A DNA stretch of 41,841 nt, taken from NCBI GenBank assembly GCA_017557345.1, contig JAFYZR010000025.1, positions 1 through 41,841 of the forward strand, read 5' to 3'. A model generated the notes under the pieces. It was not told the DNA's origin. It was given only the letters and a program-made list of their open reading frames with translations, and did not search any database. Of this stretch, positions 283 to 25,191 are shown piece after piece (the stretch's first letter is position 1; every line of letters starts with the position of its first letter). Source of the stretch: Paludibacteraceae bacterium (GTDB lineage Bacteria > Bacteroidota > Bacteroidia > Bacteroidales > Paludibacteraceae). Made by a program: the position numbers and the translations under genes.

Positions 283-4453
<4,171 letters not shown>

Positions 4454-5182: not shown

Positions 5183-5413
5183 TTATCCTATTAGTGTAAC
5201 GATGTTTTCCAATCGTTCGCGTATCTTGTCAAATTCCAGATTGAGGTCGAGGAAGTTCTGTTGCCTGCTAACAGACGTGCGCTCGGAGAAGGCGTCGTAT
5301 AACGCATCTTCACATGCTTTGCAGAGGTCTTCCTAACAATATCTGCCGTGCTTCGACCGCAAGCATCGGTCGATGGCTCTGTAACGTACGATTGCTCCTT
5401 TATTCTGTGCCAT
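5183..5413 (-). pseudogene. Broken N-terminal fragment of a WYL-type transcriptional regulator
   Basis: From an ATG at 5413 the frame reads MAQNKGAIVRYRAIDRCLRS and continues KHGRYC, then an in-frame TAG at 5335-5333, then EDLCKACEDALYDAF and a divergent tail ending LEFDKIRERLENIVTLIG with TAA at 5185-5183. The opening closely resembles the winged-helix start of Bacteroidales WYL regulators (pattern NKxAxxRYxxIDRCLR... LEDLxEAC). Only about 76 of the roughly 300 expected codons remain, with no WYL core, so this is a decayed remnant. The last 25 codons do not look like the family and may mark a deletion joint. It sits directly behind the AAA/DUF4143 gene. Confidence 0.6.
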
Positions 5414-5430
5414 GGTTTTAATTTAGTTAG

Positions 5431-6804
5431 TTATACTGGCATTTTGGGTAAGGATAAAATCATATCATCGGTGCTATTATTCCCTTGTATAAACATAGAA
5501 TAATAAACCGGCATGTATGTTACTCCGTCTTTGTCCGTTTTGACCTCACGTTTGTTGCAAAGGACGATAGCATCCTTTACTGAATAATCCTTGTTGGAGA
5601 TGAACTTATCCAACGCGCTATGCACGTAATAATCCTTGCCCGACTTGACCTCTATCGGGAGTATGGATAGGTTCGTATAATCGTCGATTATGAAATCCAC
5701 CTCTCCGAGTTTTTTGTTATCGTAATAAAAGAGCGGACATCCATGTGCGTGCAGTTCCTGCGCAACGGCGGACTCATATACCGTTCCCAAGTTGATGCTC
5801 TTAATGTCCTCCAGAATAGCATTCACGTTCATTTTGTACAACAGGTATGTCAGCAGTCCTACATCATTGATATACAGCTTCAGCAGGTTCTTCTGCTCGC
5901 TTTCTTTCAGTGGGAAATGTGGATTGCTGATTGCGCGCACAGCCATTGCTACACCCGAAGCGGTTAAGTACTCAAATTCCTCCTCATAGTGTTCATAGCG
6001 TTTGTTTTTGTTGTGCTCGATGTCGCGATAAACGACGCGTTTTTTCTTGTTCTCCAGTAGCGATGGGATAAGGTCGTAAATAGTACGTATTTTCAGCTTC
6101 CTTTCTTCGTCGTATTGAGAGGCATCCACACGATACAATTCAATAATATCTTGCTGGATGGCACGTACTTTGGTTATATTCTGATCTTGCACAAACTGAT
6201 TAACCGCTTCCGGCATACCGCCTACAATCAGGTCGAAACGGAACATCCTCATTACATATTCGTGAAGCGATTCATTCAGCATCTCGCGTTTCTCGAACTG
6301 TGAACGAATAGCGGAGATGGACTCCGAGTTGGCTCCCATCGCCCATAGAAACTCCTCAAAATCCAACGGGTACATCTGCTTAATGGCCACGCTACCCATC
6401 GGTGTGGAAGGGGTCATCTTCAATGCTATTCCTAATTGCGAACCGCTGGCTATATAGCGGTAACGTGCGTCCTGGTTAAGGAACTTGAGCATAGTCAACA
6501 GATGGGGGTAAGCCTGTATCTCGTCCAGGAAAATGATGGTGTCCTCGCGACTACCTAACTCATTGCCGGCAAAGATGCCTAATTGCACATAGAAATCCTG
6601 CACGGAATGAACGTTCGCAAACGTCCGTGGACCATCCTTGTCTTCTTGTAGATTAATCTCTATATAGTGAGCAAATAGTTGTTGGCTCACATAACGGATA
6701 AGATATGACTTGCCAATCTGACGGGCTCCGTTTACAAGCATGATCTTGTCCGGCTCTTCCTGCAAAAAACGAGATAACTCTGTAGTAAATTTACGTTGTA
6801 ACAT
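5431..6804 (-). CDS. AAA-family ATPase with C-terminal DUF4143 nuclease-like domain
   Basis: 457 aa, normal for the family. The AAA domain has Walker A GARQIGKS at 26-33 and Walker B IIFLDEIQ with D94-E95. A winged-helix region follows, then a DUF4143 C-terminus with a PD-(D/E)xK-like signature (LGEVDFIIDDY... LPIEVKSGKDYY). Such proteins are common in Bacteroidetes and archaeal genomes, often in accessory regions; roles in DNA handling or defence have been proposed but their biochemistry is poorly known. It has its own promoter (6827-6858), and the broken WYL fragment follows 17 bases after its stop. Family assignment is firm; function is open. Confidence 0.9.
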   Translation of the reverse strand: MLQRKFTTELSRFLQEEPDKIMLVNGARQIGKSYLIRYVSQQLFAHYIEINLQEDKDGPRTFANVHSVQDFYVQLGIFAGNELGSREDTIIFLDEIQAYPHLLTMLKFLNQDARYRYIASGSQLGIALKMTPSTPMGSVAIKQMYPLDFEEFLWAMGANSESISAIRSQFEKREMLNESLHEYVMRMFRFDLIVGGMPEAVNQFVQDQNITKVRAIQQDIIELYRVDASQYDEERKLKIRTIYDLIPSLLENKKKRVVYRDIEHNKNKRYEHYEEEFEYLTASGVAMAVRAISNPHFPLKESEQKNLLKLYINDVGLLTYLLYKMNVNAILEDIKSINLGTVYESAVAQELHAHGCPLFYYDNKKLGEVDFIIDDYTNLSILPIEVKSGKDYYVHSALDKFISNKDYSVKDAIVLCNKREVKTDKDGVTYMPVYYSMFIQGNNSTDDMILSLPKMPV

Positions 6805-6826
6805 ATTTCTGTTATAAAATCCGCCG

Positions 6827-6858
6827 CAAAGTTACTACTTTTTTTCGAATTATGCAAG
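6827..6858 (-). promoter_or_regulatory. Predicted promoter of the AAA/DUF4143 gene
   Basis: On the minus strand CTTG (6858-6855) is followed after 20 bases by TAACTTTG (6834-6827), a good -33/-7 match. The predicted start leaves a leader of about 20 bases before the ATG at 6804. The rest of 6,860-7,045 is AT-rich with no gene that I can support. Confidence 0.65.
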
Positions 6859-7049
6859 AGTTTACACGCTTTTTCTGTAATTTTTACACCAAAAATACAC
6901 GCTTTTCCTATAAAATATCATCCAAGATCGCGCACTTTTCCGATTTTGTGGGTATTTTGTGGTAGTATAGGCGTACTTCGATTTTCAGAGTTTTTTTGTG
7001 GAAATCCACAAATTTGCGCTGCGAAACGGTCATTTTCGGCAGTCTGGTC

Positions 7050-7074
7050 AAAATGAAAAGCGGGTTGCCCCGCT
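7050..7074 (-). terminator. Terminator-like hairpin behind the ardA relic
   Basis: A 6-bp stem (agcggg at 7059-7064 with cccgct at 7069-7074, loop TTGC) is followed on the minus strand by TTTCATTTT. The intact ardA gene has a hairpin with the same TTGC loop at the matching place but different stem bases, suggesting that the two downstream regions are homologous and that pairing was conserved. Confidence 0.5.
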
Positions 7075-7078
7075 GTGC

Positions 7079-7123
7079 TCATGCTCTGAAGATATAACGA
7101 TCAACCTTTGTATAATCACCGTC
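7079..7123 (-). pseudogene. Relic of an ardA 3' end
   Basis: Minus-strand translation gives DGDYTKVDRYIFRA and a TGA stop at 7081-7079. The intact ArdA at 19,129 ends GGDYTEVDGYIFRA: 11 of 14 residues match, the stops coincide, and the DNA matches at 35 of the last 42 bases with several silent differences. The relic begins exactly where the ADP-ribosylglycohydrolase gene stops (TAA at 7126-7124), so it marks a recombination joint, not a gene. It has no start and cannot be expressed as ArdA. Confidence 0.8.
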
Positions 7124-8311
7124 TTACACAATCCGGTTGTACTTGTCTATCACATCCCAGAAGCACTGCGGCAGATAGACATTCGGCAGCGCAGCTGCTT
7201 CAAGGAACATCGGTGCTACCTCGTCGGGTGTGTAACCGGCGATACCACAACCTACAGCAGTGACGAGGTAGTTATGGTCTGGGTCGGCTAAGGCATGTTC
7301 CGTGAAACGTTGCACAGCATTATCCAGTTCTACTATTCCTTCCATCGTTGGGAGTGCATAGCATAAGCCGGTGATGCCTTCACCCACACCCCATTCCGCA
7401 TGGAAATACTTATGGGCGTACGCAGCCGCACCTCCGTAGTGCTGACCCTCTTTGTTGCTGCCGAAGACAAAGATCTGTTCCGATTTGAGAAAGTCGATGT
7501 TATCGGGCGAGACTTTGTGGTTCTCGAAAGCTTTGATGCGCCAGATGATATGCCACCATTCGGATGGCAACCGTTTGTACATCTCATGGATGATGTCGGC
7601 TGGTATCACTTTGTAAAAAGCTTCTGCAAAAGCACCGGTGATACAGGCCACAGTATCGCTATCGCCACCGATGGAGATGGCATTGCGGATGGCATCTTCG
7701 AACGAGGCTGACTCACCAAAGGCGGTGAAAGCAGCAGGGATAGTTCCTTGACAGGTCTCGTCGAAGGAATAAGTGCTACGGAGCGAAGTAAGATCTTCAT
7801 CGAAGGTGTAGCCGAGTTTTTGCGTCAGGAACTCCGCTACATCGCATTTGAGTGCTCCGTGACGCATCATCCATACACCGGCTGCAACCGCTTGCGCACC
7901 TTTAATGCCTTCGGGGTGGTTGTGCGTTATCTCGGCAGAGATTTTGGCAAGACGCATGGCTTCTTGGCGACTATGTGCCACCCACCCGCAGGCTGAGGCT
8001 CGCATGGCTGAACCATTGCCGAAGGAGTTGTAGGGTTGTTTGAGTGCAGAGGGCGTGGAGAGCCAAACACCGAAGCGGTTTCCATAACCGCCCATAGGGT
8101 CTGGGAACTGATGGTAATAATCACTCATAATCTCGATGAGAGATGAGTAGGTGTGCTGTTCATCTGTCAGTAGCCACTCCGCTACCGCCATATTCATGAT
8201 ACTATCGTCCGTGAAAGTACTATTCGGACTGAACAGAGGAAACTCCGTTGTGTGGATGTTGTTATACTCGTAGATACTGCCTACAACATCGCCTATGATT
8301 GCACCTAACAT
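7124..8311 (-). CDS. ADP-ribosylglycohydrolase fused to a second conserved domain
   Basis: 395 aa. Residues 1 to about 245 are a DraG/ARH-type hydrolase that would remove ADP-ribose from targets: the metal-binding motif TDDSIMNMAVAEWLL lies near residue 35 and GGDSDTVACITGAF near 218, so both di-metal sites are present. From about residue 260 a second domain reads EQIFVFGSNKEGQHYGGAAA, then GVGEGITGLCYALPTMEG and VTAVGCGIAGYTPDEVAPMF. This glycine-rich FGSN...GAA family occurs alone in phages and other bacteria; I infer a macrodomain-like, nucleotide-binding fold but cannot confirm it. Last gene of the HIRAN cassette, overlapping the preceding gene by 7 bases. It could reverse ADP-ribosylation as an immunity or anti-toxin function. 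Its stop abuts the ardA relic. Confidence 0.85.
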   Translation of the reverse strand: MLGAIIGDVVGSIYEYNNIHTTEFPLFSPNSTFTDDSIMNMAVAEWLLTDEQHTYSSLIEIMSDYYHQFPDPMGGYGNRFGVWLSTPSALKQPYNSFGNGSAMRASACGWVAHSRQEAMRLAKISAEITHNHPEGIKGAQAVAAGVWMMRHGALKCDVAEFLTQKLGYTFDEDLTSLRSTYSFDETCQGTIPAAFTAFGESASFEDAIRNAISIGGDSDTVACITGAFAEAFYKVIPADIIHEMYKRLPSEWWHIIWRIKAFENHKVSPDNIDFLKSEQIFVFGSNKEGQHYGGAAAYAHKYFHAEWGVGEGITGLCYALPTMEGIVELDNAVQRFTEHALADPDHNYLVTAVGCGIAGYTPDEVAPMFLEAAALPNVYLPQCFWDVIDKYNRIV

Positions 8312-8814
8312 ACTTTGTTCTCTATTTCTCCCGCAGGCGGGAATTCTAAATATTCTCCGGTTGGAGGTTCTGTACTGAGTAACATCTTGTGGTCATTATG
8401 GAAGCACGAACACATATCGCCAAATGCAAAGAAGATATAACCGCGTTGTGCGAGGTCATTGGCTTTCTTGAACCACTCTTTATATTCAGGATCTTTGCCC
8501 TTTCCCCATTTCGCCAAGTGCGGATAGTGCTCAATAAACTGCTCTGCTATCTCGTGAGGCGTTTTGCCTTGCCATCCATCCCAGTTGAATTCGCCTGCGG
8601 ATGTATTAGCCGCCGTATGTGGTTCGTTGCTTCGATAGATAGCACCGCAAGTTTTGAGGGTGTACTTCTTGACGGTCGTCGCACAACGCCAGTTAGCACC
8701 ATTCGGAGATACACTCGGGCAGACACGGATGAGTTCGTATCCCATTTCGTGTAACTCTCGTATCACAAGGAAGTACTGCTTGATGCCTTCCATATAATCG
8801 TTATGCTCAGCCAT
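8305..8814 (-). CDS. Hypothetical protein of the HIRAN/ADP-ribosylglycohydrolase cassette
   Basis: About 169 aa from the chosen start MAEHNDYMEGIKQYFLVIRE, five bases after the upstream stop. A longer form from ATG at 8850 would add 12 residues overlapping the upstream gene and is less likely. Not recognised. The protein is soluble, rich in Cys, His and Trp (GANWRCATTVKKYTLKTCGA; FAFGDMCSCFHNDHK), with conserved-looking blocks NWDGWQGKTPHEIAEQFIEH and PEYKEWFKKANDLA. The N-terminal half has an alpha-beta look around a segment (YELIRVCPSVSPNGANWR) that could be a small binding domain. The 7-base overlap with the ADP-ribosylglycohydrolase gene indicates coupled translation and a shared process. 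Confidence 0.75.
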   Translation of the reverse strand: MAEHNDYMEGIKQYFLVIRELHEMGYELIRVCPSVSPNGANWRCATTVKKYTLKTCGAIYRSNEPHTAANTSAGEFNWDGWQGKTPHEIAEQFIEHYPHLAKWGKGKDPEYKEWFKKANDLAQRGYIFFAFGDMCSCFHNDHKMLLSTEPPTGEYLEFPPAGEIENKVC

Positions 8815-8819
8815 AAGTA

Positions 8820-9326
8820 TTATTCTTTGAGCTTCAAATAATTTATCCAACTATCTATTATGTGTTCGTTTATCTCATCTCCTACGAACTCAATCGCTCG
8901 TCCTAAGCGTTTACCTTCTTGTAAAAACAAGCACATGTCTTCCTCTGGGATAGGGACATCGTAAGAATATTTGTTCACAGCTTGAAAAATATCTCTGCAA
9001 TACAACCTCTCTTCTTCGTTTGCAAATTCATATGCAAAGAACTTCCTTTTGATTTCATCTAAGATGGCTCGACCTTTCTTCAAGTAATCATAGTCGGGGA
9101 AATCTTTCGGAGGTTCGCTGTGTGTATAGAAGTGTCCGCCCTTCTCGGTAAGTAATATATAATGGAAGCCAGAAGTTTGCACGTTACGATTGGTGTTGTA
9201 ATGCGGAATAAATGCAAGGCAGTTATGTTTACGAGTGCGGTAGTGCCCCATGTACACAGCAAATTCAAAGCCATGTTCTATGGCTATTTTATCTGCTTGC
9301 CGATGATATGTGGCATTATACCTCAT
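8820..9326 (-). CDS. Hypothetical protein of the HIRAN/ADP-ribosylglycohydrolase cassette
   Basis: 168 aa, unknown. It is soluble and rich in Tyr and His at the N-terminus (MRYNATYHRQADKIAIEHGF; VYMGHYRTRKHNCLAFIPHY), followed by a beta-rich stretch (SGFHYILLTEKGGHFYTHSE) and an acidic helical C-terminal half. I see no signal peptide, membrane segment or classic enzyme motif. The frame lies two bases after the stop of the 504-aa gene and five bases before the next gene, so it belongs to one tight operon. Its partner gene suggests a link with ADP-ribose chemistry, but that is inference only. Confidence 0.72.
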   Translation of the reverse strand: MRYNATYHRQADKIAIEHGFEFAVYMGHYRTRKHNCLAFIPHYNTNRNVQTSGFHYILLTEKGGHFYTHSEPPKDFPDYDYLKKGRAILDEIKRKFFAYEFANEEERLYCRDIFQAVNKYSYDVPIPEEDMCLFLQEGKRLGRAIEFVGDEINEHIIDSWINYLKLKE

Positions 9327-9328
9327 CG

Positions 9329-10843
9329 TTAATTTTTCTCTACAATAAACCGTACAAGTTCGCGGAGTTGTGATAAAGGATGTGACGGAAACATAGAATC
9401 GTATTCGGCTTGCTCAGATAAATTCATTAGGAATCCTGTTTTGATGTTTTCGTCGTAAGGATCTCTAGTCCATCCGACTACGCCGTCATCCTCAAATTGA
9501 ACGTTATTCTTTCTGCGCTCTAACTCAAAGACTACTGCATCTCGGTGACCGGTTACACCCTCTTCGATACCGGCACATGCTATAACCATCACATCACTAC
9601 CAGCCTGTACCAACATAGTAAGCTGGTATATAACGCCATTTTCCTCATGGCCTTTCATAAGGTTATAGCAGAAATGGTTGCCCGCTTTAGTGTGACCTTC
9701 CTCTACCTCTATTAAGCCAAATTTATCGCTGGCTTGCTCACGAAAATTTCTAATAGATTCTTCCTTGTCTGCAATTGTCTCATTGAGAAGGCAAGGAAGT
9801 ACATCAAAGAATAGAGTGAAGTCATTTGACCATAGAATATAATCAGGAGCTTTTTGCCCTTCTATTTCAGCATTGTCTTTTGTTTTCTTGAATTCGGATG
9901 GAATAGCGAGTTGGTGATCGGATTCGGAAAGATATTGTACATCACCTTTGAAGCAAGCACTGCTCCATGATGATTCTGCAAAGAAGTCGTCTTCTTGATA
10001 TACTTTTGCATCAGCGAGCATATCATCAAAATCCTCTTTAGTAAGTGGCTCTTTAAGGACATACTGCCATTCATCAATGTGCTGGAATTTATCCAAGGGT
10101 AAGATATGAGCAAGGTATTTGAAGCGTGCCAATGCCATATCATTATTATCTTGATTCATTATGCATATTAAGTCGGCATATGACACGTATTCAAAGTCAC
10201 ATACTTTGCCATTCTTCAACGCAATCATGGAGAGGCTAAGCTTTTGCTCTTTATTCTTTGGGTTGGAAATTGCCAGTTGGGTGGCTGTAGATGTCATATC
10301 TTTGACTGCCCACTGATTAGTAAATAGTAGATACCCCAAACGCTTGTAGTCTTCACCTCCGGTCGGGTTGTCTAAATCAATGGAATATGCATTCAAGAGA
10401 CCTTTTCCAATAACAAAAGGAGCAAACAATCCATTCATAATGACAGGATCATCTGAATTTTTCACGAGTGCGCACGTGATATTCCAAGAGCCTTCAGTTT
10501 GTTCCCGACGCCATTTAAGTCCGAAGCGTTTCTTAGGATCTTTAAGCGGCTTCTCGTTCTCCTCGTCATATACATCGCCACCGGTTAATTCCTGAATGGC
10601 ACATACGACCTTTGGAAACAACTGATAGTCTGCCATAGAACTCATGGAGAACGCACGCACCTCATAGCCATCCTCCTCTTGGTTTACTTCCACACCACGG
10701 AGCGCGTATTTGAACGAACCAAAGTGCAGACATGGGAATTCGGCAGAAGTGACTACTATTTGTTCGCCTGCGTCGGCAAGTGCCTTGAATAATGATTGAG
10801 GCTCAATTTTCGTAAGGGTACGAATGTTAGCGCAATAACTCAT
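9329..10843 (-). CDS. Large hypothetical protein (504 aa) of the HIRAN/ADP-ribosylglycohydrolase cassette
   Basis: Not assigned to a family. It is acidic, soluble and probably of two parts. The N-terminal half carries FPCLHFGSFKYALRGVEVNQ and GSWNITCALVKNSDDPVIM. The C-terminal half (about 335-504) has GLIEVEEGHTKAGNHFCYNL and ends with WTRDPYDENIKTGFLMNLSE, then YDSMFPSHPLSQLRELVRFI. A similar RDPYD...LMNLSE...FP.HPLSQ tail occurs in uncharacterised Firmicutes proteins as I remember them, so this half is probably a widespread domain of unknown role. No catalytic motif is evident. It starts about 20 bases after a terminator-like hairpin that separates it from the EVE gene, with no room for a promoter of its own. 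Confidence 0.8.
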   Translation of the reverse strand: MSYCANIRTLTKIEPQSLFKALADAGEQIVVTSAEFPCLHFGSFKYALRGVEVNQEEDGYEVRAFSMSSMADYQLFPKVVCAIQELTGGDVYDEENEKPLKDPKKRFGLKWRREQTEGSWNITCALVKNSDDPVIMNGLFAPFVIGKGLLNAYSIDLDNPTGGEDYKRLGYLLFTNQWAVKDMTSTATQLAISNPKNKEQKLSLSMIALKNGKVCDFEYVSYADLICIMNQDNNDMALARFKYLAHILPLDKFQHIDEWQYVLKEPLTKEDFDDMLADAKVYQEDDFFAESSWSSACFKGDVQYLSESDHQLAIPSEFKKTKDNAEIEGQKAPDYILWSNDFTLFFDVLPCLLNETIADKEESIRNFREQASDKFGLIEVEEGHTKAGNHFCYNLMKGHEENGVIYQLTMLVQAGSDVMVIACAGIEEGVTGHRDAVVFELERRKNNVQFEDDGVVGWTRDPYDENIKTGFLMNLSEQAEYDSMFPSHPLSQLRELVRFIVEKN

Positions 10844-10863
10844 GACGATTATTTTTAGAGGTT

Positions 10864-10920
10864 AAAAACAAAAGGAGCAGGCTAAGATGGAGTCACTAAA
10901 TGGACTGTCAGGCCTGCTCC
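10864..10920 (-). terminator. Terminator or attenuator hairpin inside the HIRAN cassette
   Basis: A perfect 9-bp stem (ggagcaggc at 10874-10882, gcctgctcc at 10912-10920) encloses a 29-base loop with a weak inner pairing; on the minus strand it is followed by TTTTGTTTTT. It has all the marks of an intrinsic terminator for transcripts from the HIRAN and EVE genes, yet four same-strand genes follow at once. Partial readthrough or regulated attenuation is more likely than a full stop. Confidence 0.75.
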
Positions 10921-10931
10921 AGAGCAGATTA

Positions 10932-11441
10932 TTACCTGCTCATATAAATCAAGTCAACTAAATTGTCTTTCTTCATGGCAGCAGAGAAAGCAGCTTCGTT
11001 CTTCTTCAAGAAGTCAGCCCAAACTTGTTCCAATTTCTCTGCTTGCTCATCGGTAAGAACCAAACCGGAATGACCTTTATCCCACTCGAAGTCAGGGATG
11101 GCTTTTACCAATTCCTCGCACGTGAGGATAGGAAGCGCATCGGGATTGATTGCAACGTCGGGAAGGAAGTTAACATAATATGTCTCCCGTCCTCTACCGG
11201 ACCAGTCTTCATCTTTGTACGGCTTCGAAGTGATTTTTCCGGAAGCAACGATACCTGTTTGACCGTACATGCCGACTTTCACCCAGAAGAATCTATCTCC
11301 TTCGTGAATCTGGTTCCAATCCCATACCGACCAGTTATAGTCTGGTTCGTACTCTGTAACCATATCAATCAAGTCGGAGAGATAGTGGTGCATGTTATAC
11401 GATGAGAACGCGGGGTTCCATTTCAAAATAACCGTTTTCAT
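10932..11441 (-). CDS. EVE/PUA-like domain protein
   Basis: 169 aa, probably a single-domain protein. It begins MKTVILKWNPAFSSYNMHHY and contains WDWNQIHEGDRFFWVKVG, then GIVASGKITSKPYKDEDWSG and YYVNFLPD: a WNP start, a GD.FF..K strand and GIVA.G.I.S.P strands typical of EVE/PUA-fold modules. EVE domains bind modified bases in DNA or RNA and are found fused to or beside restriction and defence enzymes (McrBC-like and others), so a sensing role for modified nucleic acid is likely. It starts 16 bases after the HIRAN stop and is followed by the hairpin at 10,864-10,920. Fold assignment is by pattern only. Confidence 0.75.
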   Translation of the reverse strand: MKTVILKWNPAFSSYNMHHYLSDLIDMVTEYEPDYNWSVWDWNQIHEGDRFFWVKVGMYGQTGIVASGKITSKPYKDEDWSGRGRETYYVNFLPDVAINPDALPILTCEELVKAIPDFEWDKGHSGLVLTDEQAEKLEQVWADFLKKNEAAFSAAMKKDNLVDLIYMSR

Positions 11442-11456
11442 GATAGTATCAATTTA

Positions 11457-11879
11457 TTATTTCTTCTCTAACAAGTTTACCCGTATTTGCACTTGCTGGT
11501 TCGGGTGAGCCTCTTTGTCAACGTATGTGATGACGCACTCGAAGATGTCTTTGTGACCAAAGTCCATCAGTTGTGCCAGTTGGGTGTTGTCACGACCGGG
11601 AATGTAACCAACGTGCAACGCTTCCACCGTTCGCTCTTGTGCGTTCGCTTTCTTGGGCTTGCCTAATGAGATACTGAACAGCTGTGTGTCTTTCGGCATC
11701 TCGTGCTTCGGAACGTAGAACAACGCAATGGCATCTAGATCATGCTTGTTCTCATCTTCGCGAACCATGTACAGTTTGTCACCCGGACGCATCTCGTCCA
11801 ATACCAAATACCCCTCTGTGTGACCGAATCCGGCCAAGTTGCAGTTTAAGAACTCTGCTTTGTTTTTCTTCAGTTCCAT
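11457..11879 (-). CDS. HIRAN-domain protein
   Basis: 140 aa, nearly all one HIRAN domain: NCNLAGFGHTEGYLVLDEMR, PGDKLYMVREDENKHDLDAI, VGYIPGRDNTQLAQLMDFG and a final strand FECVITYVDKE. HIRAN domains, known from Rad5/HLTF helicases, grip free 3' DNA ends or stalled forks; standalone bacterial copies often sit with nucleases and helicases in mobile regions. It is the first gene of the minus-strand cassette that ends with the ADP-ribosylglycohydrolase, behind the promoter module at 11,922-12,000. It may recognise damaged or invading DNA for the cassette. No catalytic residues are expected. Confidence 0.88.
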   Translation of the reverse strand: MELKKNKAEFLNCNLAGFGHTEGYLVLDEMRPGDKLYMVREDENKHDLDAIALFYVPKHEMPKDTQLFSISLGKPKKANAQERTVEALHVGYIPGRDNTQLAQLMDFGHKDIFECVITYVDKEAHPNQQVQIRVNLLEKK

Positions 11880-11921
11880 AGTAGTATTTTTTTGCAGTTT
11901 AACATCTCGATTTTTTAATTT

Positions 11922-12000
11922 CGCTGCAAAATTACTACATAGGTAGTGACACTTGAAGTCCGAAGGTGCAAAAAAATGTCAAAAAAGTGCATTTTTTTGC
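11922..12000 (-). promoter_or_regulatory. Promoter/operator module A (HIRAN cassette)
   Basis: The minus strand carries TAATTTTG (11934-11927) as a -7 box, but the -33 position reads CTTC instead of TTTG. Upstream lie GACTTCAAGTGTCA and an A/T-tract repeat around TGCA (11981-11998). The whole block is a near-copy of module B in front of the DUF6361-PLD-helicase operon: 20 of the first 21 bases agree, and a 10-base core tgacacttga plus gtccgaag are shared. A weak -33 plus shared upstream sites suggests control by a common regulator; the WYL gene between the modules is the obvious candidate. Confidence 0.6.
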
Positions 12001-12930
12001 TTAACAGTACATTTTTTGCATGTTTTCGGCTTCTTCTTGGAACTTTTTGCGCAGGCTGGCAGGCTCCAGCACCTCCAGCGTCGAACCGAACTTGCGCAAC
12101 TCCTGTATGAAGTCATAAGTAGGTGCTACATAGAAACTGAAATACGTAAACCCATCTTCCTCTTTCAGTTCGGTTTGACTATGGTGGATAGGTAGCGAAC
12201 GCATGAAGTTAGCATCGTAGTTCGTGAGGCGAACCAAAATCTTCTCCGCTTCCGTGGTAGTCCTATCTACGCCATATTGATTCTTAAAGAACTCCTTGGC
12301 ATTGAATTTCTTGGGCATCTCATACGGCTTATCCACCGTCACCAAATCTTTCATGCGATCCAAGGCATACACACGAGGCTCCTTCTCTTCCGGATGGTCT
12401 TCTGGTTTGCCTACCACATACCAACGGCGACGGCATACCTTCAGACAGTAGGGCGCCAATAGGAACGAGTGAGGTTCGGAGCGTTTGAAACCCTGATACG
12501 TCGCATAAAGCATTCGGTGTTCTTTCATAGCACTAACGATGGTAGATAAATAGCGCGAACCTTCGGAGGTCTCTTCAAAGATGATACGGTCTTTCATGTC
12601 ACCGGCAAGGTTAACCATGTTGCTCACAGCAAACGTGTCCACCAGCCATGCACGGAGGCTGTTGCGGTCGATGTCGCCACGTTCACCGATAGAATACAAA
12701 TTGGTAGCACGGTCACACACTATCTCAATGCCGAATAACTCAGCGATGTCCTCACGGTGACGATGCAGATTGCGCTTACCGTACTCGTGTTCGTGCTTCT
12801 CGTTGTAATGCGACTGCTCCCAGCGCTTGTCTATCTGCGGGAGAGAAATCTGTTTGGCGGAATAGATGGTGTCTAAGAGCCAAAACAAACGATGAAAGAG
12901 TTTAATTTGTGCTGCCATTGTATTATTCAT
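12001..12930 (-). CDS. WYL-domain transcriptional regulator
   Basis: 309 aa. An N-terminal winged helix-turn-helix (about 8-75, with the YGKRNLHRHREDIAELFGIE recognition region) precedes a WYL domain (about 130-230: LYATYQGFKRSEPHSFLLAP, then RRWYVVGKPEDHPEEKEPRV and YALDRM) and a C-terminal WCX-like extension (ILVRLTNY... YFSFYVAPTYDFIQELRKFG). WYL regulators sense ligands such as single-stranded nucleic acid and often repress defence operons. The ATG at 12930 overlaps the helicase stop by 8 bases; MAAQ at 12918 is an alternative start. It is the last gene of the DUF6361-PLD-helicase operon and lies just upstream of the HIRAN promoter, so it could control both cassettes. Confidence 0.9.
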   Translation of the reverse strand: MNNTMAAQIKLFHRLFWLLDTIYSAKQISLPQIDKRWEQSHYNEKHEHEYGKRNLHRHREDIAELFGIEIVCDRATNLYSIGERGDIDRNSLRAWLVDTFAVSNMVNLAGDMKDRIIFEETSEGSRYLSTIVSAMKEHRMLYATYQGFKRSEPHSFLLAPYCLKVCRRRWYVVGKPEDHPEEKEPRVYALDRMKDLVTVDKPYEMPKKFNAKEFFKNQYGVDRTTTEAEKILVRLTNYDANFMRSLPIHHSQTELKEEDGFTYFSFYVAPTYDFIQELRKFGSTLEVLEPASLRKKFQEEAENMQKMYC

Positions 12931-15889
12931 CTTTATTATATGGACTGAGATTAATTGTCAACTTCTTCAATTCTTCATCTGAGAGGTCTTGCGAGGATAG
13001 AATCTGAGAAAGTTCCTCTTGTCTCGGTTGTCCCATTGTCAACCTATACAGCGACAAGACCTCTAGCAAATGTTTGTATTTTGCATGTTCACTACTATAT
13101 GGGTACATCGGGACTAATCGCTCTACATACTCCATGCAGGCTTTTTCTTCTTCGGTAAGACATTCAATCGGGATACACCAATATGGAACCATCTGTGAAT
13201 AACCATCTCCCATAGCTTTTCGTGCTTTTTCAAATAAGGTTTGCCATACCTGATCGTCGAAAGTGTTTTGTAGCGTTTGGGCATCTCCATATAAATGAGC
13301 GATACTGCGCCTTATTGCGTGACATGCATAGCGATTGACACGACCTTCTCGCTGCTCCATGTCCACGGGATTGGATGGAAGGTTCCAATGCACTAACTTG
13401 CGGGCGTACCAATGGAAGTTCAATCCTTCCTGCCCCACAGAAGTGGTCGCTAATATGAACGGTCTAAATGGAGAGTTGAACACGTCTTGCATAGTCTTGG
13501 TTCGCTGAGTAGATTCATCGGTTGCTATTTTATCAACATATTGCGATGCAAAATGGGTTCTCATACTAAGCGTCTCATCACCTCCCATTAGTGCACTTTT
13601 ATTGTCTATTAACAAATTATTGGACGCCGCTATATTCATAGCATCGCCAAGTTTATCACCACCTATTGTGAACTTGTACTCATCCAAAACTGCCTGCAGA
13701 TTTCCTAACACACAATAGGATAACACCTGTTGGTAATAGCGATCTTCCTTACAGATTGTATCCACAATAGCCGCACTCTCCGGTTTGTTGAAGAGCGTAA
13801 TCATCTTAGTGCCGACTTGCATAGCGCTCTGCTCGTCCTGTTCAATACGATATGCACATACAGCAGGAGAAGCAATCGCAGAATCTACCAGTATGCTTAC
13901 CGTATTGGGGTGGATGGTTTGCGGAATATCTATTTGAAGTCCATCCAGACGTTGCATGATTTCCAATACTTGCTCAGCGCTATTACGCATATTGGCATCG
14001 AACGAGACAATACCCACTTGGTTCAAGGCACTCTCTACTAACGGCCGCAGATATTCCTGAATTTCTTTAACCGTCTTGTCTATATGCAGCAACGGGGCAT
14101 ATAGTTCGGACAACTTCTTGCATGGGTAATTCAAGAAGGATAGTTCCACTTTCTTCTCAAAGACACGTTTGGTTTTGGACTTTTGTGAGGTCTTGTATGA
14201 GAAGCCACCACGCTGTTTGCGGTATGCGCCTAAGGTGTACCGCTCAGCATAGTACGACATCATCACGGCAATCATACGCGGAACCATTTCCCACGAAGAA
14301 AAGATAAGGAACTTGCTAAAGTTCTTTGATGACTCTTCTTCAAAAACACCACCAGCTTTGTAGTAAGGTCTCGAAGCCGGTACCCAAAGCAATTGATGAA
14401 TATGGTTCTTTGGTTCGTTCTTTGCATTTAATTCGCCGAACACAGCATCGTGCAAGAACTGCAATTTTCCATTATTGGTGGGTATCGCTTCGTAGTTGTT
14501 GATACGTTGCTCATTGAGACACAGAGAGGTGTTGCGTTTGGAAATAGCTTCTCTTACGCATTTCGCATTGTTCATCACATACTTCTTCAACTGATACTTA
14601 TCCATGAAGGATAGCAAGTATGGCGATGACATGACATAGTCCAATGGCACTCTCTTGAAGCTGACATTGCGTGTATGGCCTGCAATAGTATCCAATAAAT
14701 GCTGCGCTTCAGCGAACGATAACATATCTACATCTGCTACAGGGACATCAAACACCGTCTGAGCAGATGGATCCATATTGTTGGTAATGCGTTCGGTTCG
14801 ACACATTACTTTGTATAGTTCTTCTTCAGCTACGCTTTTGGACTCCAGTACGCAATCTTTATTCTCCGTAGAGATAAGCCGCAAATCATTCGAGAAGCGT
14901 TTCCAGATAGTTTGGAACTGCCCTGCCTCGTCTTTCGTGACGAATAGAAAATCTATTACTTTCAAGAAATCACGATAGGCATCAACGTCTCCTTCATTGA
15001 TTTCTGCCAGCGTTGAGAATGGTTTATAAGGGGTGGCAGATAAAAGTAGGATCTTCGTTTCGGGATTAGAGAAGAAACGTTTAACCAACATGGACTGCTC
15101 ATCATCTCCGGGGTGCAACAGATCAGAGAAACGTTGGAACTCATCCATGACGATTAAATCGGGTTCGAGCATATCCATACTGATTTCAGCAAACGTACGA
15201 CGCAGCATTGTGAGAACCGACTTGCGTTCTGCTTTATCCCCGTTCATGCATGCCGCATTGAGTCTATCGGTCAGTTGGGTTTCGCGGTCCTTTTCAGCAA
15301 ATGCCTTTTGCATGTTACTGATATAATCGCTTTCATTGATAGACTCTATCTCTTGGTTATATCTATTGACGTACCACTCCCAGTATTTCACATCCATGCT
15401 CAAAAAATCACTCAAAGCGGACTCGTCCTCAATGTGCGTAATCTTAGGTAGAAGCGCGCACATTAACGCACGCTCACGCGCGGTACCAGTTGAATTGACA
15501 ATCTGGAAAGATGTGCAGGGGGTTAACGGGATCAACCGTTCGGGCATGACTCCTTTTTTCTCTGCTTCTTTAGAAATGATGTATTCGTTCTTGGCTATTT
15601 GCAGATGCTGCATCGACAGACGGCTATCGCCGAAGTCCGAACTATTCTGTACGCCCAACTCGCGTATGTTCTGCTTTGAGATGTTCGCGTTGGAACAGAT
15701 ATAGACAACTTTATAGAAATTATCCTTTGCATCCTCGCGCCAACCACGAATCAGTTCTATGACACGTCGAGCGACAATGGTCTTTCCCAAGCCCACTTCG
15801 TCTGCCAGAAGAACGCGACTGCGACCATTGATAAGCAAGTCTGCTATACGTTTCGCTGTTTTTTCTTGAAAATCTTTAGGTTCAGCCAT
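12923..15889 (-). CDS. SNF2-like SF2 helicase of a DUF6361-PLD-helicase defence operon
   Basis: 988 aa. It begins with helicase motif I ADEVGLGKTIVARRVIEL (Walker A G33-T37 region), a DEAH-box variant DEFQ at 249-252 (LIVMDEFQRFSDLL), motif III SATP at 284-287, and a helicase-C lobe near 840-880 with TTSVGQEGLNFHWYARKLVH and motif VI EQREGRVNRY. A large helical insertion separates the lobes. The ADEVGLGKT opening is typical of SNF2-type ATPases in DISARM-like and related defence systems. It would move along or remodel invading DNA with the PLD nuclease partner. It starts two bases after the PLD stop; the WYL start overlaps its end. From memory, DUF6361 + PLD + helicase matches Azaca (ZacC being the helicase); not verified. 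Confidence 0.88.
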   Translation of the reverse strand: MAEPKDFQEKTAKRIADLLINGRSRVLLADEVGLGKTIVARRVIELIRGWREDAKDNFYKVVYICSNANISKQNIRELGVQNSSDFGDSRLSMQHLQIAKNEYIISKEAEKKGVMPERLIPLTPCTSFQIVNSTGTARERALMCALLPKITHIEDESALSDFLSMDVKYWEWYVNRYNQEIESINESDYISNMQKAFAEKDRETQLTDRLNAACMNGDKAERKSVLTMLRRTFAEISMDMLEPDLIVMDEFQRFSDLLHPGDDEQSMLVKRFFSNPETKILLLSATPYKPFSTLAEINEGDVDAYRDFLKVIDFLFVTKDEAGQFQTIWKRFSNDLRLISTENKDCVLESKSVAEEELYKVMCRTERITNNMDPSAQTVFDVPVADVDMLSFAEAQHLLDTIAGHTRNVSFKRVPLDYVMSSPYLLSFMDKYQLKKYVMNNAKCVREAISKRNTSLCLNEQRINNYEAIPTNNGKLQFLHDAVFGELNAKNEPKNHIHQLLWVPASRPYYKAGGVFEEESSKNFSKFLIFSSWEMVPRMIAVMMSYYAERYTLGAYRKQRGGFSYKTSQKSKTKRVFEKKVELSFLNYPCKKLSELYAPLLHIDKTVKEIQEYLRPLVESALNQVGIVSFDANMRNSAEQVLEIMQRLDGLQIDIPQTIHPNTVSILVDSAIASPAVCAYRIEQDEQSAMQVGTKMITLFNKPESAAIVDTICKEDRYYQQVLSYCVLGNLQAVLDEYKFTIGGDKLGDAMNIAASNNLLIDNKSALMGGDETLSMRTHFASQYVDKIATDESTQRTKTMQDVFNSPFRPFILATTSVGQEGLNFHWYARKLVHWNLPSNPVDMEQREGRVNRYACHAIRRSIAHLYGDAQTLQNTFDDQVWQTLFEKARKAMGDGYSQMVPYWCIPIECLTEEEKACMEYVERLVPMYPYSSEHAKYKHLLEVLSLYRLTMGQPRQEELSQILSSQDLSDEELKKLTINLSPYNKDE

Positions 15890-15891
15890 AG

Positions 15892-17691
15892 TTATTCGCG
15901 TTTAAGTTTTTCTATCTTCGGTATTGCGCGTTGCATTTGACTCAGAAGCGTTCTGAATCCTTCAATTTCGGCTGCAATACGACACTTGTTCAACGTTTCC
16001 ACTGCTCGCTTGATTCGCTCAGGATTACTATATGCAGTCCGCAATAAGTCTTCATATAATGACAATCCACTGAACGAAGCTGTGTGTACATCCGTTCTTT
16101 TACCAACGAGTTCCCTATTGGTCATTTCCTCCATATACCCATCGGGATTGCCGGAAAGCATGTACGCTAAGTAGTCCATCACCTTGTCGGGAGTGTTCAG
16201 CAAGCGATCGTATATCCGTTGCTTACGGTCGGATGGCATATTACGCGTGTTGATTTTAACAACGACACGCACATCATGACACTCCATGATATATAACTCA
16301 GTCAAGTCAGTGAGATACAGTCCGCCAAACACCATCTGCGTACTCAATGCTTGCTTTAGGGAAGGGCTATAGATAGGAGAAATAAACACATCTTCCTGCG
16401 GGCACTTGCATTTGACGACAATGCGGTATGTGTCCGGCGTCTCTTCTTCCACTTCTGCATATTGTATTGCAGCTATCGCACGGCGAATACATAGCTGTAT
16501 GGTGCGCTGTTCATTTTGAGAAGCGGAGTCTATGGAGCATGGAGTGGCTTTCTCAAATGCACAATCTTTGCCTTCAAAGATAAATTGTTCCTTAATCTTA
16601 TTAAACGAGGCCTTATGAGGCTGAAAACGTAGCGATAGCAACAGTTCTACATTGCGTTGGAAGCCATTTTTCGTAGCATTGGTAGAACCTAAGAGCAGCC
16701 TATTTCCTCGGTAGTCGCTTGTGAAATATATCTTTTCGTGCAGGTTGACGATAGCGCCGTCCTCATCAGGCGTAGCCAGTGCTAATTTAGTCGAATAGAC
16801 CTGGTCCGGTAACAACCCAAGGATATCATGCGAACAACTATTCGGCTGTGTGACAAGTAACTTTTGACCTTTGCGTTGAGAAATCCGCTCCATTGTCGGC
16901 AGATCAATGAAAGGCGAGATGACTATCGTGTCTCCCGAATACCTCAGCATGTCATCCAGACACTCCTTTCCGTCATATCCAGGGACACCCATAAGATGGA
17001 AATCATAATCGCCAAACGTATCTCCATCGATGTCAAATTGCTCCACACGAGGGATAGCGTCTTTCAGTACGCGAAGAATCTCTTTCTGTTGCTTGGACTT
17101 GCTGAATTTCTCCAACCAATCCAAAAGAGCCACTAATGGTTGATGCTTCTCTTGGGCTTGGTGTGACGCATTTCTTCTCATCACTTTACCGGTAAGCACA
17201 CAACTCACGTCGATGTCTGTTGAGTACGTGAGATTCTTGCTCATGACCAAGAGTTTCAACTGCCGTTCTTCCGCCCCTTTCTGTTTCTCCAAGATTATCC
17301 ATACTTTCGGATGGAAACTGGCAAAGGAATTACGATGACCAACCGGTTGCACTTGGCAAACCGATTCTTCCAGAAGAGTCAGAATACGTTCGCCCAATAA
17401 AGCGTTTGGATGGATCTCTCCATTCTCATCCTTGCGCAGCGGGCTATATATGCTACCCGCATTACAATAGACACAGAATTTGCTCGACACTTTGTTGATG
17501 ACATCCAGCAAATAATAGGGACGCTGGATGTATTGCTCCGCACTCGCAGTCAATTCGCCTAAAGCAAGAGGCACTTCCAGCAACGTTTCCAAATCAAGGC
17601 TATACGTTGTTCCTATAGCAGCTTCTACTATATAGCCGGGAGTCAGCAAAGCTTCGTTATAGAGCACTTCTCCCATTAACTCTTTTGCCAT
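15892..17691 (-). CDS. Phospholipase D-like (HKD) nuclease of the DUF6361-PLD-helicase operon
   Basis: About 599 aa from ATG at 17691 (MAKELMGEVLYNEALLTPGY). A second ATG at 17676 forms a TAATG junction with the DUF6361 stop and is equally plausible; a longer frame from 17739 is less likely. Two HKD-like motifs are visible: FHPKVWII with MSKNLTYS (H and K near residues 127/129) and LHEKIYF with GSTNATKNG (near 318/320), so two half-sites could form one PLD active site. PLD-fold enzymes in defence operons are usually nucleases acting through a histidine intermediate. The C-terminal 200 residues are not recognised. It overlaps DUF6361 by about 16 bases and is two bases from the helicase, indicating a complex. 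Confidence 0.85.
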   Translation of the reverse strand: MAKELMGEVLYNEALLTPGYIVEAAIGTTYSLDLETLLEVPLALGELTASAEQYIQRPYYLLDVINKVSSKFCVYCNAGSIYSPLRKDENGEIHPNALLGERILTLLEESVCQVQPVGHRNSFASFHPKVWIILEKQKGAEERQLKLLVMSKNLTYSTDIDVSCVLTGKVMRRNASHQAQEKHQPLVALLDWLEKFSKSKQQKEILRVLKDAIPRVEQFDIDGDTFGDYDFHLMGVPGYDGKECLDDMLRYSGDTIVISPFIDLPTMERISQRKGQKLLVTQPNSCSHDILGLLPDQVYSTKLALATPDEDGAIVNLHEKIYFTSDYRGNRLLLGSTNATKNGFQRNVELLLSLRFQPHKASFNKIKEQFIFEGKDCAFEKATPCSIDSASQNEQRTIQLCIRRAIAAIQYAEVEEETPDTYRIVVKCKCPQEDVFISPIYSPSLKQALSTQMVFGGLYLTDLTELYIMECHDVRVVVKINTRNMPSDRKQRIYDRLLNTPDKVMDYLAYMLSGNPDGYMEEMTNRELVGKRTDVHTASFSGLSLYEDLLRTAYSNPERIKRAVETLNKCRIAAEIEGFRTLLSQMQRAIPKIEKLKRE

Positions 17692-18875
17692 AAGTCCTCC
17701 TTTCTTAATTCCTGCAACATCAGACGCACCGTCTCCCAACGGTAAGACAAATAATAATGATGAATAGGCATCTTGTACTCGAAGTCCGGGTTATTGATTT
17801 TTCTTCGTCCGCTCTTGATAGCAATCTCACGGCTGACAATCAAATTTTCCAATTGATTCAAGTCGCCTTTCAGCAACGAATGATAGCAGTCTTCTACAAA
17901 ATGCAGGGAATTGTTTAGCAGCCTATTTGCTCCAGAGTGTAACGGAAAAAGACTGGCTATGATATCTGGTTGGTTCTCCTTGAAACGGCTGTAACATTCT
18001 TCCCATTCACGCACAATCTCTTCATCTTGGCTGTTAGAAAGAATGACGTTGTATCGCAGGAAAAGCAGATAGACAAATTCAGAGATCTCACAACTACGAT
18101 GAATCATATCACGGAACTGCGGCGGGAATTCGTCTCTGTCCAACGTAAAGAAATCGCCTTCAATCTTGATCTCGTCATGTTCAAGCAAATAGCCCAGCAA
18201 CGAGTGACGAACATGAATGGCCGTGAGCATGTGTTCCTTGATATAGTCACGCTCAGCAAAATTGACGTCCAGATGACATTCTTCCGGGAACTTGTAACCT
18301 AATTCGCGCGGGAACTCACAGAACGGACGGTAACTAATCGTCTCGTTTGCATCATTGGCGACATCTGCGGATTCAGTTCGCATCTGTTCCGGTCTGCTTT
18401 GCCATTGGAGCGCATAAGACCGTATAGCAGACGCGATAGTCGTCCGTTGGTCTAATTGCAAGAACCCGTACGTGCGCAGCGCAGAATTGTAGATGTATGT
18501 AGGGTCATACTTTACGAACTGATTATTAGACCGCAGCGAGTCAGCTCCAGTGATTCCAGGAGCATTAGGAGTGTTCTTGCTTAAATGACGAGTCATCGAG
18601 ATCTCCTCCTCGATAATCATCTGTTGTACTTGACGCAAGCTGACATCTTCAATCCGTCGGGCTTTCTCCCATACTTTCTGATACACTTGCGGCAGTAAAA
18701 CAAAGTATTTGGCATGTTGATGCAGGGTGGATATTCCGGGGAACATCTCATCAGCCAAAGCATCGCGGATACTACCGAATCCTAATTCATCGATAGCGCC
18801 CTGCTCAATTCGTCGCATGGCAAGTATCTGCTTTGCCTGCTCGGTCTTGTTTAGATGTATGTTACCTAACTGCAT
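17676..18875 (-). CDS. DUF6361 protein, first gene of the DUF6361-PLD-helicase-WYL operon
   Basis: 399 aa from ATG at 18875 (MQLGNIHLNKTEQAKQILAM). A TTG 11 codons earlier keeps the frame open but lies on the predicted promoter, so the ATG is preferred. The start LGNIHL, then GAIDELGFGSIRDALADEMF and PGISTLHQHAKYFVLLPQVY, follow the DUF6361 pattern LGWIDFS...DELG.G.IRD..ADLFFPGTST...RAKYF. The molecular role is unknown; the protein is mostly helical and accompanies PLD and helicase partners. From memory this trio is the Azaca system (ZacA/B/C), which protects against phages; I could not check that. The WYL gene at the operon end is an extra, presumably regulatory, component. Confidence 0.85.
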   Translation of the reverse strand: MQLGNIHLNKTEQAKQILAMRRIEQGAIDELGFGSIRDALADEMFPGISTLHQHAKYFVLLPQVYQKVWEKARRIEDVSLRQVQQMIIEEEISMTRHLSKNTPNAPGITGADSLRSNNQFVKYDPTYIYNSALRTYGFLQLDQRTTIASAIRSYALQWQSRPEQMRTESADVANDANETISYRPFCEFPRELGYKFPEECHLDVNFAERDYIKEHMLTAIHVRHSLLGYLLEHDEIKIEGDFFTLDRDEFPPQFRDMIHRSCEISEFVYLLFLRYNVILSNSQDEEIVREWEECYSRFKENQPDIIASLFPLHSGANRLLNNSLHFVEDCYHSLLKGDLNQLENLIVSREIAIKSGRRKINNPDFEYKMPIHHYYLSYRWETVRLMLQELRKEDLWQKS

Positions 18876-18905
18876 GGCGTTTTTATTTTGATAATTTTGC
18901 GACTG

Positions 18906-18937
18906 CAAAATTACTTCTTTTTATTGACATGTGCAAG
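18906..18937 (-). promoter_or_regulatory. Proximal promoter of the DUF6361-PLD-helicase operon
   Basis: CTTG (18937-18934) and TAATTTTG (18913-18906) on the minus strand are 20 bases apart, a full -33/-7 match. Transcription would begin about 25 bases before the DUF6361 ATG. A second TAATTTTG box lies in module B 82 bases upstream, so the operon may have tandem promoters, one constitutive-looking and one with a poor -33. Confidence 0.65.
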
Positions 18938-18981
18938 TAATTTACTTATTTTGTTGCGTTTGCGCGCATATTTCTTGAAAA

Positions 18982-19060
18982 TCGCGGCAAAATTACTACA
19001 TACCCTATGACACTTGAGGTCCGAAGCTTTAATAAAATGCAAAAAAATGCATTTTTTTGA
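18982..19060 (-). promoter_or_regulatory. Promoter/operator module B with an 18-bp palindrome
   Basis: This near-copy of module A has TAATTTTG at 18995-18988, a non-consensus -33 (CCTC) and the shared tgacacttga/gtccgaag core. Upstream is a perfect 18-bp palindrome at 19041-19058 (seven A, TGCA, seven T) with a weaker copy (aaaatgcactttttt) just beyond. Such symmetric A/T-flanked sites suit a dimeric regulator; binding by the WYL protein is an inference. Confidence 0.55.
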
Positions 19061-19099
19061 GAAAATGCACTTTTTTGAGCCAAAATGGGGGTGAAAATG

Positions 19100-19122
19100 G
19101 GTCAAAGAGCAGCTTGCGCTGC
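19100..19122 (-). terminator. Weak terminator-like hairpin behind ardA
   Basis: A 5-bp stem (gcagc 19109-19113, gctgc 19118-19122, loop TTGC) follows the ardA stop on the minus strand and is trailed by CTTTGACC. It is short and lacks a clean T run; its main interest is its likeness to the hairpin behind the ardA relic at 7,059-7,074. Confidence 0.35.
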
Positions 19123-19128
19123 CCTTAC

Positions 19129-19692
19129 TCATGCCCTGAAGATATAGCCATCGACCTCAGTATAATCGCCACCGGTATCGAGTGAGCGCCACACTGCCGA
19201 ATAATCAATGCAGCACTGGAGCCACTGCGGGAGGTTCTTAAAGTAGCCGCACTCCTCGCACAGGTACTCGGCGAAATCTTCTGCGCTATCGTACTTGCCC
19301 TCGTAGCGCTCCTCGAAATCTTCGAGCGTGCCCTCATCCCAATAGGTAAGATACGCTTCGTATGCTTCGCGCTTTTCCTCGCTCAGCTCGGCATAAGCTT
19401 TGATTTTATCGAACGTGCTTTCGCCCATGCAGCCCTCACAATACCACTGCGACGGGTAGTGCTCGTAATCCTGAAACATCAGCTCCGCATCCGCTTCATC
19501 CGCGTGCAGGCGGTTGCAGAACTTAATAAAATCTGCGTACTCATCAAAGGTGCTCAAATCAATCCACATGCCGTAGAGACTGCCGTTGTTATACTTGGCA
19601 TACGTGCCGCAATAGACTGCGGGGTTGCTGTTCTCATAGTGCGCTGCGTGCTCACGAATTTCGTTCTTCGTTAATGGTTCTCTGTAGTTCAT
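19129..19692 (-). CDS. ardA: ArdA-family antirestriction protein
   Basis: 187 aa. The hallmark blocks are PAVYCGTYAKYNNGSLYGMW, ID(L)STFDEYADFIKFCN, RLHADEADAELMFQDYEHYP and a C-terminal GYIF. The protein is strongly acidic, as expected for ArdA, a dimer that mimics bent B-form DNA and blocks type I restriction enzymes, typically carried by plasmids and conjugative elements to survive entry into a new host. The full ArdA length is present and the motif residues look intact. It stands between the primase-side genes and the DUF6361 operon. A 45-bp relic of another ardA 3' end lies 12 kb away. ArdA and a type I system in the same island suggests a mobile-element origin with acquired defence genes. 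Confidence 0.93.
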   Translation of the reverse strand: MNYREPLTKNEIREHAAHYENSNPAVYCGTYAKYNNGSLYGMWIDLSTFDEYADFIKFCNRLHADEADAELMFQDYEHYPSQWYCEGCMGESTFDKIKAYAELSEEKREAYEAYLTYWDEGTLEDFEERYEGKYDSAEDFAEYLCEECGYFKNLPQWLQCCIDYSAVWRSLDTGGDYTEVDGYIFRA

Positions 19693-24246: not shown

Positions 24247-24283
24247 CAATTTCGCACTATAGTGATTTTTGAACACAAAAACT

Positions 24284-25015: not shown

Positions 25016-25051
25016 GTTATGAAAATTACATCAACCGTGGGTTTGTCTGGG

Positions 25052-25191
25052 TTCGAGTCCTGGTTGAGCAACATAGAAGAGACCTTGTGGGTCTCTTTCT
25101 TGTTGTCATACCGACTCTCACCCAGGTTCTCCGCCGCTTCGCTCTGTCGATTAATCAGCAGACTGATTTTTCGAGTCCTGGTTGAGCAACA
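25052..25191 (+). repeat. Duplicated tRNA 3'-end-like sequence: candidate right attachment sites
   Basis: A 22-bp identical block beginning TTCGAGTCC and ending GAGCAACA occurs at 25052-25073 and 25170-25191. The TTCGAGT heptamer is a canonical T-loop and what follows could be the 3' T-stem and acceptor strand, but no complete tRNA lies upstream of either copy. Identity starts abruptly at the T-loop, and each copy is followed by a related hairpin. This is what repeated integration into the 3' end of a tRNA gene leaves behind. Everything to the left is accessory, everything to the right chromosomal. The 96 bases between the copies hold no gene. Confidence 0.55.
25077..25103 (+). terminator. 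Terminator behind the first att-like copy
   Basis: Stem aagagacc (25077-25084) with ggtctctt (25090-25097), loop ttgtg, followed by TCTTGTTG. It would stop the transcript from the outward promoter at 24,892. Confidence 0.6.

Follow-up and report, generated by a model that had tools for sequence, protein, structure and literature searches.

The window analyzed here is the complete contig JAFYZR010000025.1 (41,841 nt) of a Paludibacteraceae bacterium, and it contains a 12-kb gene block enclosed between an intact copy of the anti-restriction gene ardA and a relic of an ardA 3′ end in the same orientation. Both ardA ends, the genes between them and the two junctions are arranged as follows.

7059–7074, minus strand: hairpin II, GCGGG-GCAA-CCCGC type, after the relic stop (folding)
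7079–7120, minus strand: ardA 3′-end relic, read as the displaced resident tail, 40–42 nt including the stop (repeat, translation, comparison with locus L241, pattern search)
7118–7121, minus strand: right junction, where the block flank ...TAAGACGG meets the ardA sequence TGATTAT, with GG common to both (versus L241)
7124–8311, minus strand: ADP-ribosylglycohydrolase gene, last of the inserted block (Pfam)
8305–8850, minus strand: gene of unknown family, kept in the block of L240–L242 (Pfam search, block comparison)
8820–9326, minus strand: gene of unknown family without a match in related blocks (Pfam search, block comparison)
9329–10843, minus strand: gene weakly similar to DUF4299, below the cut-off (Pfam, block comparison)
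10932–11441, minus strand: gene of unknown family (Pfam search, block comparison)
11457–11879, minus strand: HIRAN-domain gene (Pfam)
12001–12930, minus strand: WYL/WCX regulator, with an abrupt identity change at its start versus L241 (Pfam, block comparison)
12923–15889, minus strand: zacC, helicase (PADLOC, E 6e-260)
15892–17739, minus strand: zacB (PADLOC, E 1.9e-102)
17676–18908, minus strand: zacA, DUF6361 (Pfam; PADLOC, E 1.8e-64)
19058–19100, minus strand: left junction zone, from the end of backbone homology (19101) to the start of zac leader homology (~19057) (locus comparison)
19105–19126, minus strand: hairpin I, GCAGC-GCAA-GCTGC type, after the intact ardA stop (folding)
19129–19692, minus strand: intact ardA, mosaic of alleles (Pfam ArdA, E 7.7e-27; allele comparison)

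Translated on the minus strand, 7,079–7,123 reads DGDYTKVDRYIFRA followed by a stop, and the C-terminal end of the intact gene reads GGDYTEVDGYIFRA followed by a stop, with 11 of 14 residues identical, as an earlier, sequence-only reading of this contig had counted. The corresponding DNA repeat (7078–7120 and 19128–19170) is 84% identical over 43 nt, and a joint 39-nt pattern derived from both ends matched the window twice, at the relic and at the intact ardA, and 0 times in 100 shuffles. The relic is a different, independent ardA allele; the earlier proposal of an older allele and not a fresh duplication is supported as to its independence. Folding reproduced the hairpins also described there: both form, one with a stem of 9 bp (z −3.6) and the other with one of 6 bp (z −3.1); the stems differ in sequence, and the GCAA loops of the coding strand read TTGC on the plus strand.

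The limits of the insert emerge from L241, where the ADP-ribosylglycohydrolase gene has another flank: the two sequences share ...AACCGGATTGTGTAAGACGG and continue with AAGGGG in L241 and TGATTAT in the window. L241 thus displays the natural flank of the block, so that the right junction of the window is ...GACGG joined to TGATTAT with 2 nt shared, and TAAGAC plus the next GG belong to the ADP-ribosylglycohydrolase gene flank (the GG being common with ardA). The ardA-derived relic accordingly starts at 7,118–7,120 and measures 40–42 nt with its stop; the homology reported earlier is real, but its extent, given as the last 14 codons and stop at 7,079–7,123, is corrected to 13–14 codons at 7,079–7,118/7,120. 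On the other side, similarity to the L241 zac leader starts near 19,057 and backbone homology stops at 19,101–19,104, and the two comparisons together bound the insert by ~7,119 and 19,058–19,100.

A filled and an empty state of such a site could be compared directly in two prophage loci. In L105, ardA and its hairpin I are separated by an amidohydrolase gene from a displaced ardA tail, a relic that bears hairpin II and is followed by prophage late genes; the 2.1-kb insert between ardA and this tail is absent from prophage L114. Positions 1–718 of L105 align with 7090–7852 of L114 at 90.7% identity and positions 2831–4197 with 7810–9175 at 98.2% (98.6% over the next 2.2 kb); the overlap of these alignments reveals 43 duplicated nucleotides. 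L114 is therefore the empty state of L105, whose cargo end and relic are the same as those of L097. A second candidate is L030, where ardA is directly followed by a leader similar (75.8% identity over 132 nt) to that found behind the relic in the window; it is weaker as an empty site because the genes behind its leader differ. In both loci where ardA and a relic stand in cis (window and L105), hairpin I stands behind the whole gene and hairpin II behind the relic, and the two right junctions fall within ~3 nt of each other, ~42 nt before the ardA end. Sequence comparison shows this arrangement to be a whole gene plus a displaced tail.

The intact ardA itself is, by comparison with other alleles, a recombinant mosaic. 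Its start is nearest to the prophage allele of L114, its middle to L032 and L127 and its near end to L112 and L110, which it resembles from ~440 on; the bins of this comparison and of the next test are offset by one base, which leaves their reading unaffected. When 16 alleles were tested for site compatibility at 103 sites, the value was 0.400 versus 0.453 (standard deviation 0.013) after permutation, with 0/1000 permutations at or below the observed value at range 10 and 34/1000 at range 20.

The reading that we favor, and to which we give an even chance, is that, in a family of prophages and kindred integrative elements, the ardA 3′ end and its terminator-like hairpin constitute a dock that cargo uses repeatedly, with homology on one side and a junction close to a single point on the other. 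Incoming DNA would arrive with an ardA tail and hairpin of its own at the leading end and recombine into the resident ardA, keeping the gene whole; homologous crossover on this side is inferred because ardA is a mosaic. The far cargo end would then be joined, presumably by end joining, to the resident ardA ~42 nt before the gene end, the position that the L105 and window sequences show, leaving the resident tail and hairpin behind as a relic. In the window, this would have placed zacABC and the module from WYL to ADP-ribosylglycohydrolase before an older layer (AAA_14/DUF4143, a broken WYL gene, more genes and hsdR/hsdM), and ardA, being common to prophages and elements, may provide the homology that keeps cargo exchangeable.

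Several observations weigh against this reading. The L105 ardA is 100% L114-like to position 521 and switches within its last 43 nt, which fits site-specific exchange too; L105/L114 is the only clean filled/empty pair; and the window offers no resident allele against which to place the left crossover. Of 11 distinct relic junctions (lengths tallied by hand from end scans), 5 lie at 39–47 nt within a full spread of 39–350 nt, a cluster that homology with random joining would not predict under a uniform null (p 1e-4), although p is 0.06 and 0.29 under short-biased nulls. Finally, several relics stand at chromosomal genes without a whole ardA, a situation that a dock explains only by later loss.

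Part of the same evidence would suit site-specific integration, which we regard as unlikely but the strongest of the rivals: the ardA end would be an attachment site, and recombinase-less cassettes with an ardA tail would be inserted around GGCGATTA by a recombinase acting in trans, so that the gene is made whole again and the resident tail pushed aside, in the manner of elements at tRNA 3′ ends. The whole gene with its displaced 3′ end, the 43-nt duplication, the late switch in L105 and the near coincidence of the window and L105 right junctions all agree with it, as do eight relic loci that share GACCGCGAT or AACCGCGAT just before the joint GTGGC/GATTAC. Yet neither Pfam nor PADLOC detected a recombinase within the window block, and none is among the best 25 of 149 Pfam families (matched by at least 2 of 147 open reading frames (ORFs) near 21 loci, out of 151 ORFs listed); the last 13 ardA codons show no lowered synonymous change (rank 61 of 162 windows); and the junctions are scattered, that of the window sharing GG only. 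A tblastn search with the tRNA-Gln integrase gave no match in 32 loci. Fixed-site tests were negative or ambiguous, and a site-specific recombinase may or may not be involved. A little less probable again is the variant in which the ardA tail and hairpin would be the attachment site for recombinase-less cassettes each with a replacement tail, an integron-like exchange common to prophages and their satellite-like relatives.

Integration of the tRNA type into a gene 3′ end restores that gene, and the ardA loci resemble its outcome in having a whole gene at one end and a displaced 3′ end at the other, in the same orientation; they differ in that the insert has no recombinase and no long identical core, and in that the junction is only nearly fixed. 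Homology-facilitated illegitimate recombination, which is homologous on one side and uses a tiny overlap on the other, matches the ardA loci in both respects, but the illegitimate end at ardA falls repeatedly near one point.

The phage context of ardA raises another possibility. The prophage loci L029 (marked as such by a head maturation protease), L031 and L033 have ardA genes 81–86% identical to that of the window, with which they otherwise share only a primase (64–68%; L029, L031) and a 56-nt piece (L031); annotated phage records gave 15 matches, every one below 60% identity. Packaging might cut near the ardA end and the DNA ends formed there be joined to other DNA, as the authors of PMC9122126 suggest in their Discussion for cos ends in the defence hotspots of P2 and P4. 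We consider this improbable. The position of prophage ardA between a replication-type module (primase) and head genes (head maturation protease), its standing as the main DNA stretch common to prophages and the window element, and the cos precedent speak for it; however, no terminase was identified near ardA, the ends of 6 and 5 viral contigs were uninformative on packaging, and the last codons are unconstrained. As far as the P2/P4 hotspots are described in PMC9122126, the ardA dock that we favor is like them in having variable cargo, defence genes included, beside an anchor that is conserved across phages and related elements, and in changing that cargo within a region common to both element types. 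It differs from them in its anti-restriction anchor gene, in the displaced tails left as scars, in its Bacteroidales hosts and in cargo that includes a 12-kb block.

The candidate role of ardA as a recombination anchor, proposed by the sequence-only reading, gained support from relatives, in which relics recur. ArdA was found in 22 family genomes, of which only same-genus loci were taken further, and in 43 of 178 genus genomes; a 30-nt ardA-end pattern had 47 matches in 39 of these 178, with a backward control of zero in every row listed. Scanning the window and 53 fetched loci with up to 4 mismatches yielded 48 ardA ends in 46 of the 54 sources (the window plus 45 loci of its genus). By our own count, 20 of them are relics, either truncated or damaged (that of the window, L038, L040, L094–L104, the second end of L105 and L106–L110), 24 come from genes that are whole or nearly so (among them L121, which is interrupted, and L123 and the first end of L105, which are internally damaged) and 4 run into a contig edge (L039, L120, L122, L125). 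L035, where the pattern is lost and ardA has in-frame gaps, was not counted. Searched separately, hairpin I occurred at 20 places in 19 of the 178 genomes, always directly behind an ardA end.

Relics as such could also result from passive decay, with ardA copies eroding by deletion and tails persisting by chance in gene-poor spots, without any dock. L094, L099 and L100, whose relics have little cargo behind them, and several relics joined at differing lengths to a dispersed repeat would be explained in this way, but the filled/empty pair L105/L114, the occurrence in cis of a whole ardA and a relic whose hairpins differ, and the AbiEi-type genes behind 12 of the 48 ends would not; decay as the sole cause seems to us improbable.

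That cargo is varied. DUF6088 (AbiEi-type) genes occur at 72 places in 58 of the 178 genus genomes and lie within 500 nt behind 12 of the 48 ardA ends (two in G185 and one each in G021, G187, G315, G237, G308, G318, G191, G290, G183 and G209). In G284 an AbiE-type pair stands directly before a relic, in the same position as the window block; the other 59 places are elsewhere, so that AbiEi cargo is not bound to ardA. In L032, L039 and L040 the AbiEi-type gene adjoins an AbiEii nucleotidyltransferase gene, as in AbiE type IV toxin–antitoxin pairs, unlike which AbiEi genes here stand directly behind ardA ends. Among the 147 ORFs, PADLOC matched 12 AbiEi, 10 AbiEii, 2 mad3, 2 mad8 and some methyltransferases, and Pfam one DpnII; L103 has a DNA methylase gene behind its relic, on the opposite strand. 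Phage protection by the cargo is predicted from the PADLOC matches. No obvious defence gene lies directly behind the relics of L094, L099, L100, L102 and L107, and the L105 insert, an amidohydrolase gene, shows that the cargo is not confined to defence genes.

For the window block, PADLOC recognized zacA, zacB and zacC together, all with strong matches; those of the WYL and HIRAN genes are weaker, and the other five genes gave none. The block contains a Zac system with a predicted defence function, and its earlier description as defence genes is thus only partly upheld. Of 358 family genomes, 9 have a strong ZacC match (E <1e-240), that of the window among them; G156 and G133, both with ZacC, are not among the family ArdA matches, and the six other ZacC genomes of the genus have no ardA end or ArdA match on the ZacC contig, some of the contigs being short (G234:C1, 10.4 kb; G133:C176, 5.1 kb). 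G187, G282, G298 and G234 carry the same genes through ADP-ribosylglycohydrolase on contigs without an ardA end, so the block is not tied to ardA. The sequence-only reading had named an unlinked block among the outcomes that would refute it, and this outcome counts against the block but not against the anchor; that genes are swapped in at ardA retains the support of the cargo behind it, the relics and one empty site.

The run from zacABC, WYL and HIRAN to ADP-ribosylglycohydrolase recurs in L240, L241, L242 and L244, none of which matches the gene at 8820–9326, and L241 and L244 have fewer intervening genes. Relative to the window, zacABC is 29–41% identical in L240–L245 and, by segment, 25–38% in L246 (outside the genus), whereas WYL reaches 85–99.7% in L240, L241, L242, L244 and L245 (43% in L243), which places a second breakpoint, and an exchange, in the window at the zacC/WYL border. 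An 87-nt leader repeat (75%) occurs in the window at 11911–11997, before the HIRAN gene, and at 18972–19058, before zacA; similar leaders precede zacA in relatives.

None of the titles listed in literature searches describes an ardA-anchored cargo site, and among those listed for the Zac names all were unrelated. If ardA is such a dock, it would be a short, concrete DNA anchor at which uncultured gut bacteria exchange defence cargo, seen both filled and empty, and its tail with hairpin would serve as a search tag that locates cargo junctions in genomes known only from fragments as well. Restriction and abortive-infection genes would then reach mobile elements by way of an anti-restriction gene, and the movement of defence genes among phages, satellites and chromosomes would become testable at one junction.

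Outside the block, the following features of the window belong to the older layer and to the carrier element.

5241–5428, minus strand: second WYL gene, broken 5′ part, MAQNKG... type (also broken in L032, L101 and L109; whole in L040)
5431–6804, minus strand: AAA_14/DUF4143 ATPase, first gene of the putative older cargo layer (Pfam)
6816–6947, minus strand: leader that directly follows ardA and hairpin in L030
19715–20014, minus strand: 99-aa backbone gene (94–95% identity in L030 and L032)
20627–23806, minus strand: primase, element backbone (Pfam, locus comparison)
24269–24844, plus strand: repressor-like regulator (Pfam)
25050–25190, plus strand: two tRNA-Gln 3′-end copies, likely the right attachment site (25050–25072 exact; 25168–25190 with 2 mismatches)

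Beyond the relic, on the left, the ATPase and the broken WYL start are followed by an unknown gene and type I hsdR/hsdM; WYL genes, whole or broken, border other cassettes too. To the right of ardA come the 99-aa gene, the primase, a small gene, the repressor-like gene and the two tRNA-Gln 3′ ends. The window, L030 and L032 share this backbone up to the hairpin (19101–19104) and diverge beyond it, which amounts to variable cargo beside a conserved gene. The window element has a primase and tRNA-Gln ends, and its left end lies beyond the contig.

Other ardA loci are altered in different ways. In L035 (G171:C12) the in-frame gaps span ~22 and ~10 codons, and the same genome has relic L097 on another contig; in L121 (G334:C25) ~3.5 kb interrupts ardA near codon 40; and in L109 and L094 ~20 nt of ardA just before the last 13 codons is replaced by a common 125-nt stretch. 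The dispersed repeat of ~200 nt (L134–L163, L116, L094, L102–L107), matched in 75 of 178 genus genomes and joined to ardA relics at several different lengths, usually follows a gene terminator directly in the loci displayed; six of its loci had no Rfam match at E 1, and it folds no better than shuffles. A structured RNA or group II intron before relics was rejected as a candidate, an Rfam search of ten relic loci having returned only an unrelated cobalamin riboswitch. On contig C63 of the same genome as the window (L187, 13292–14509), a Phage_integrase gene directly adjoins an intact tRNA-Gln, and this site is possibly the other end, or a sister, of the window element.

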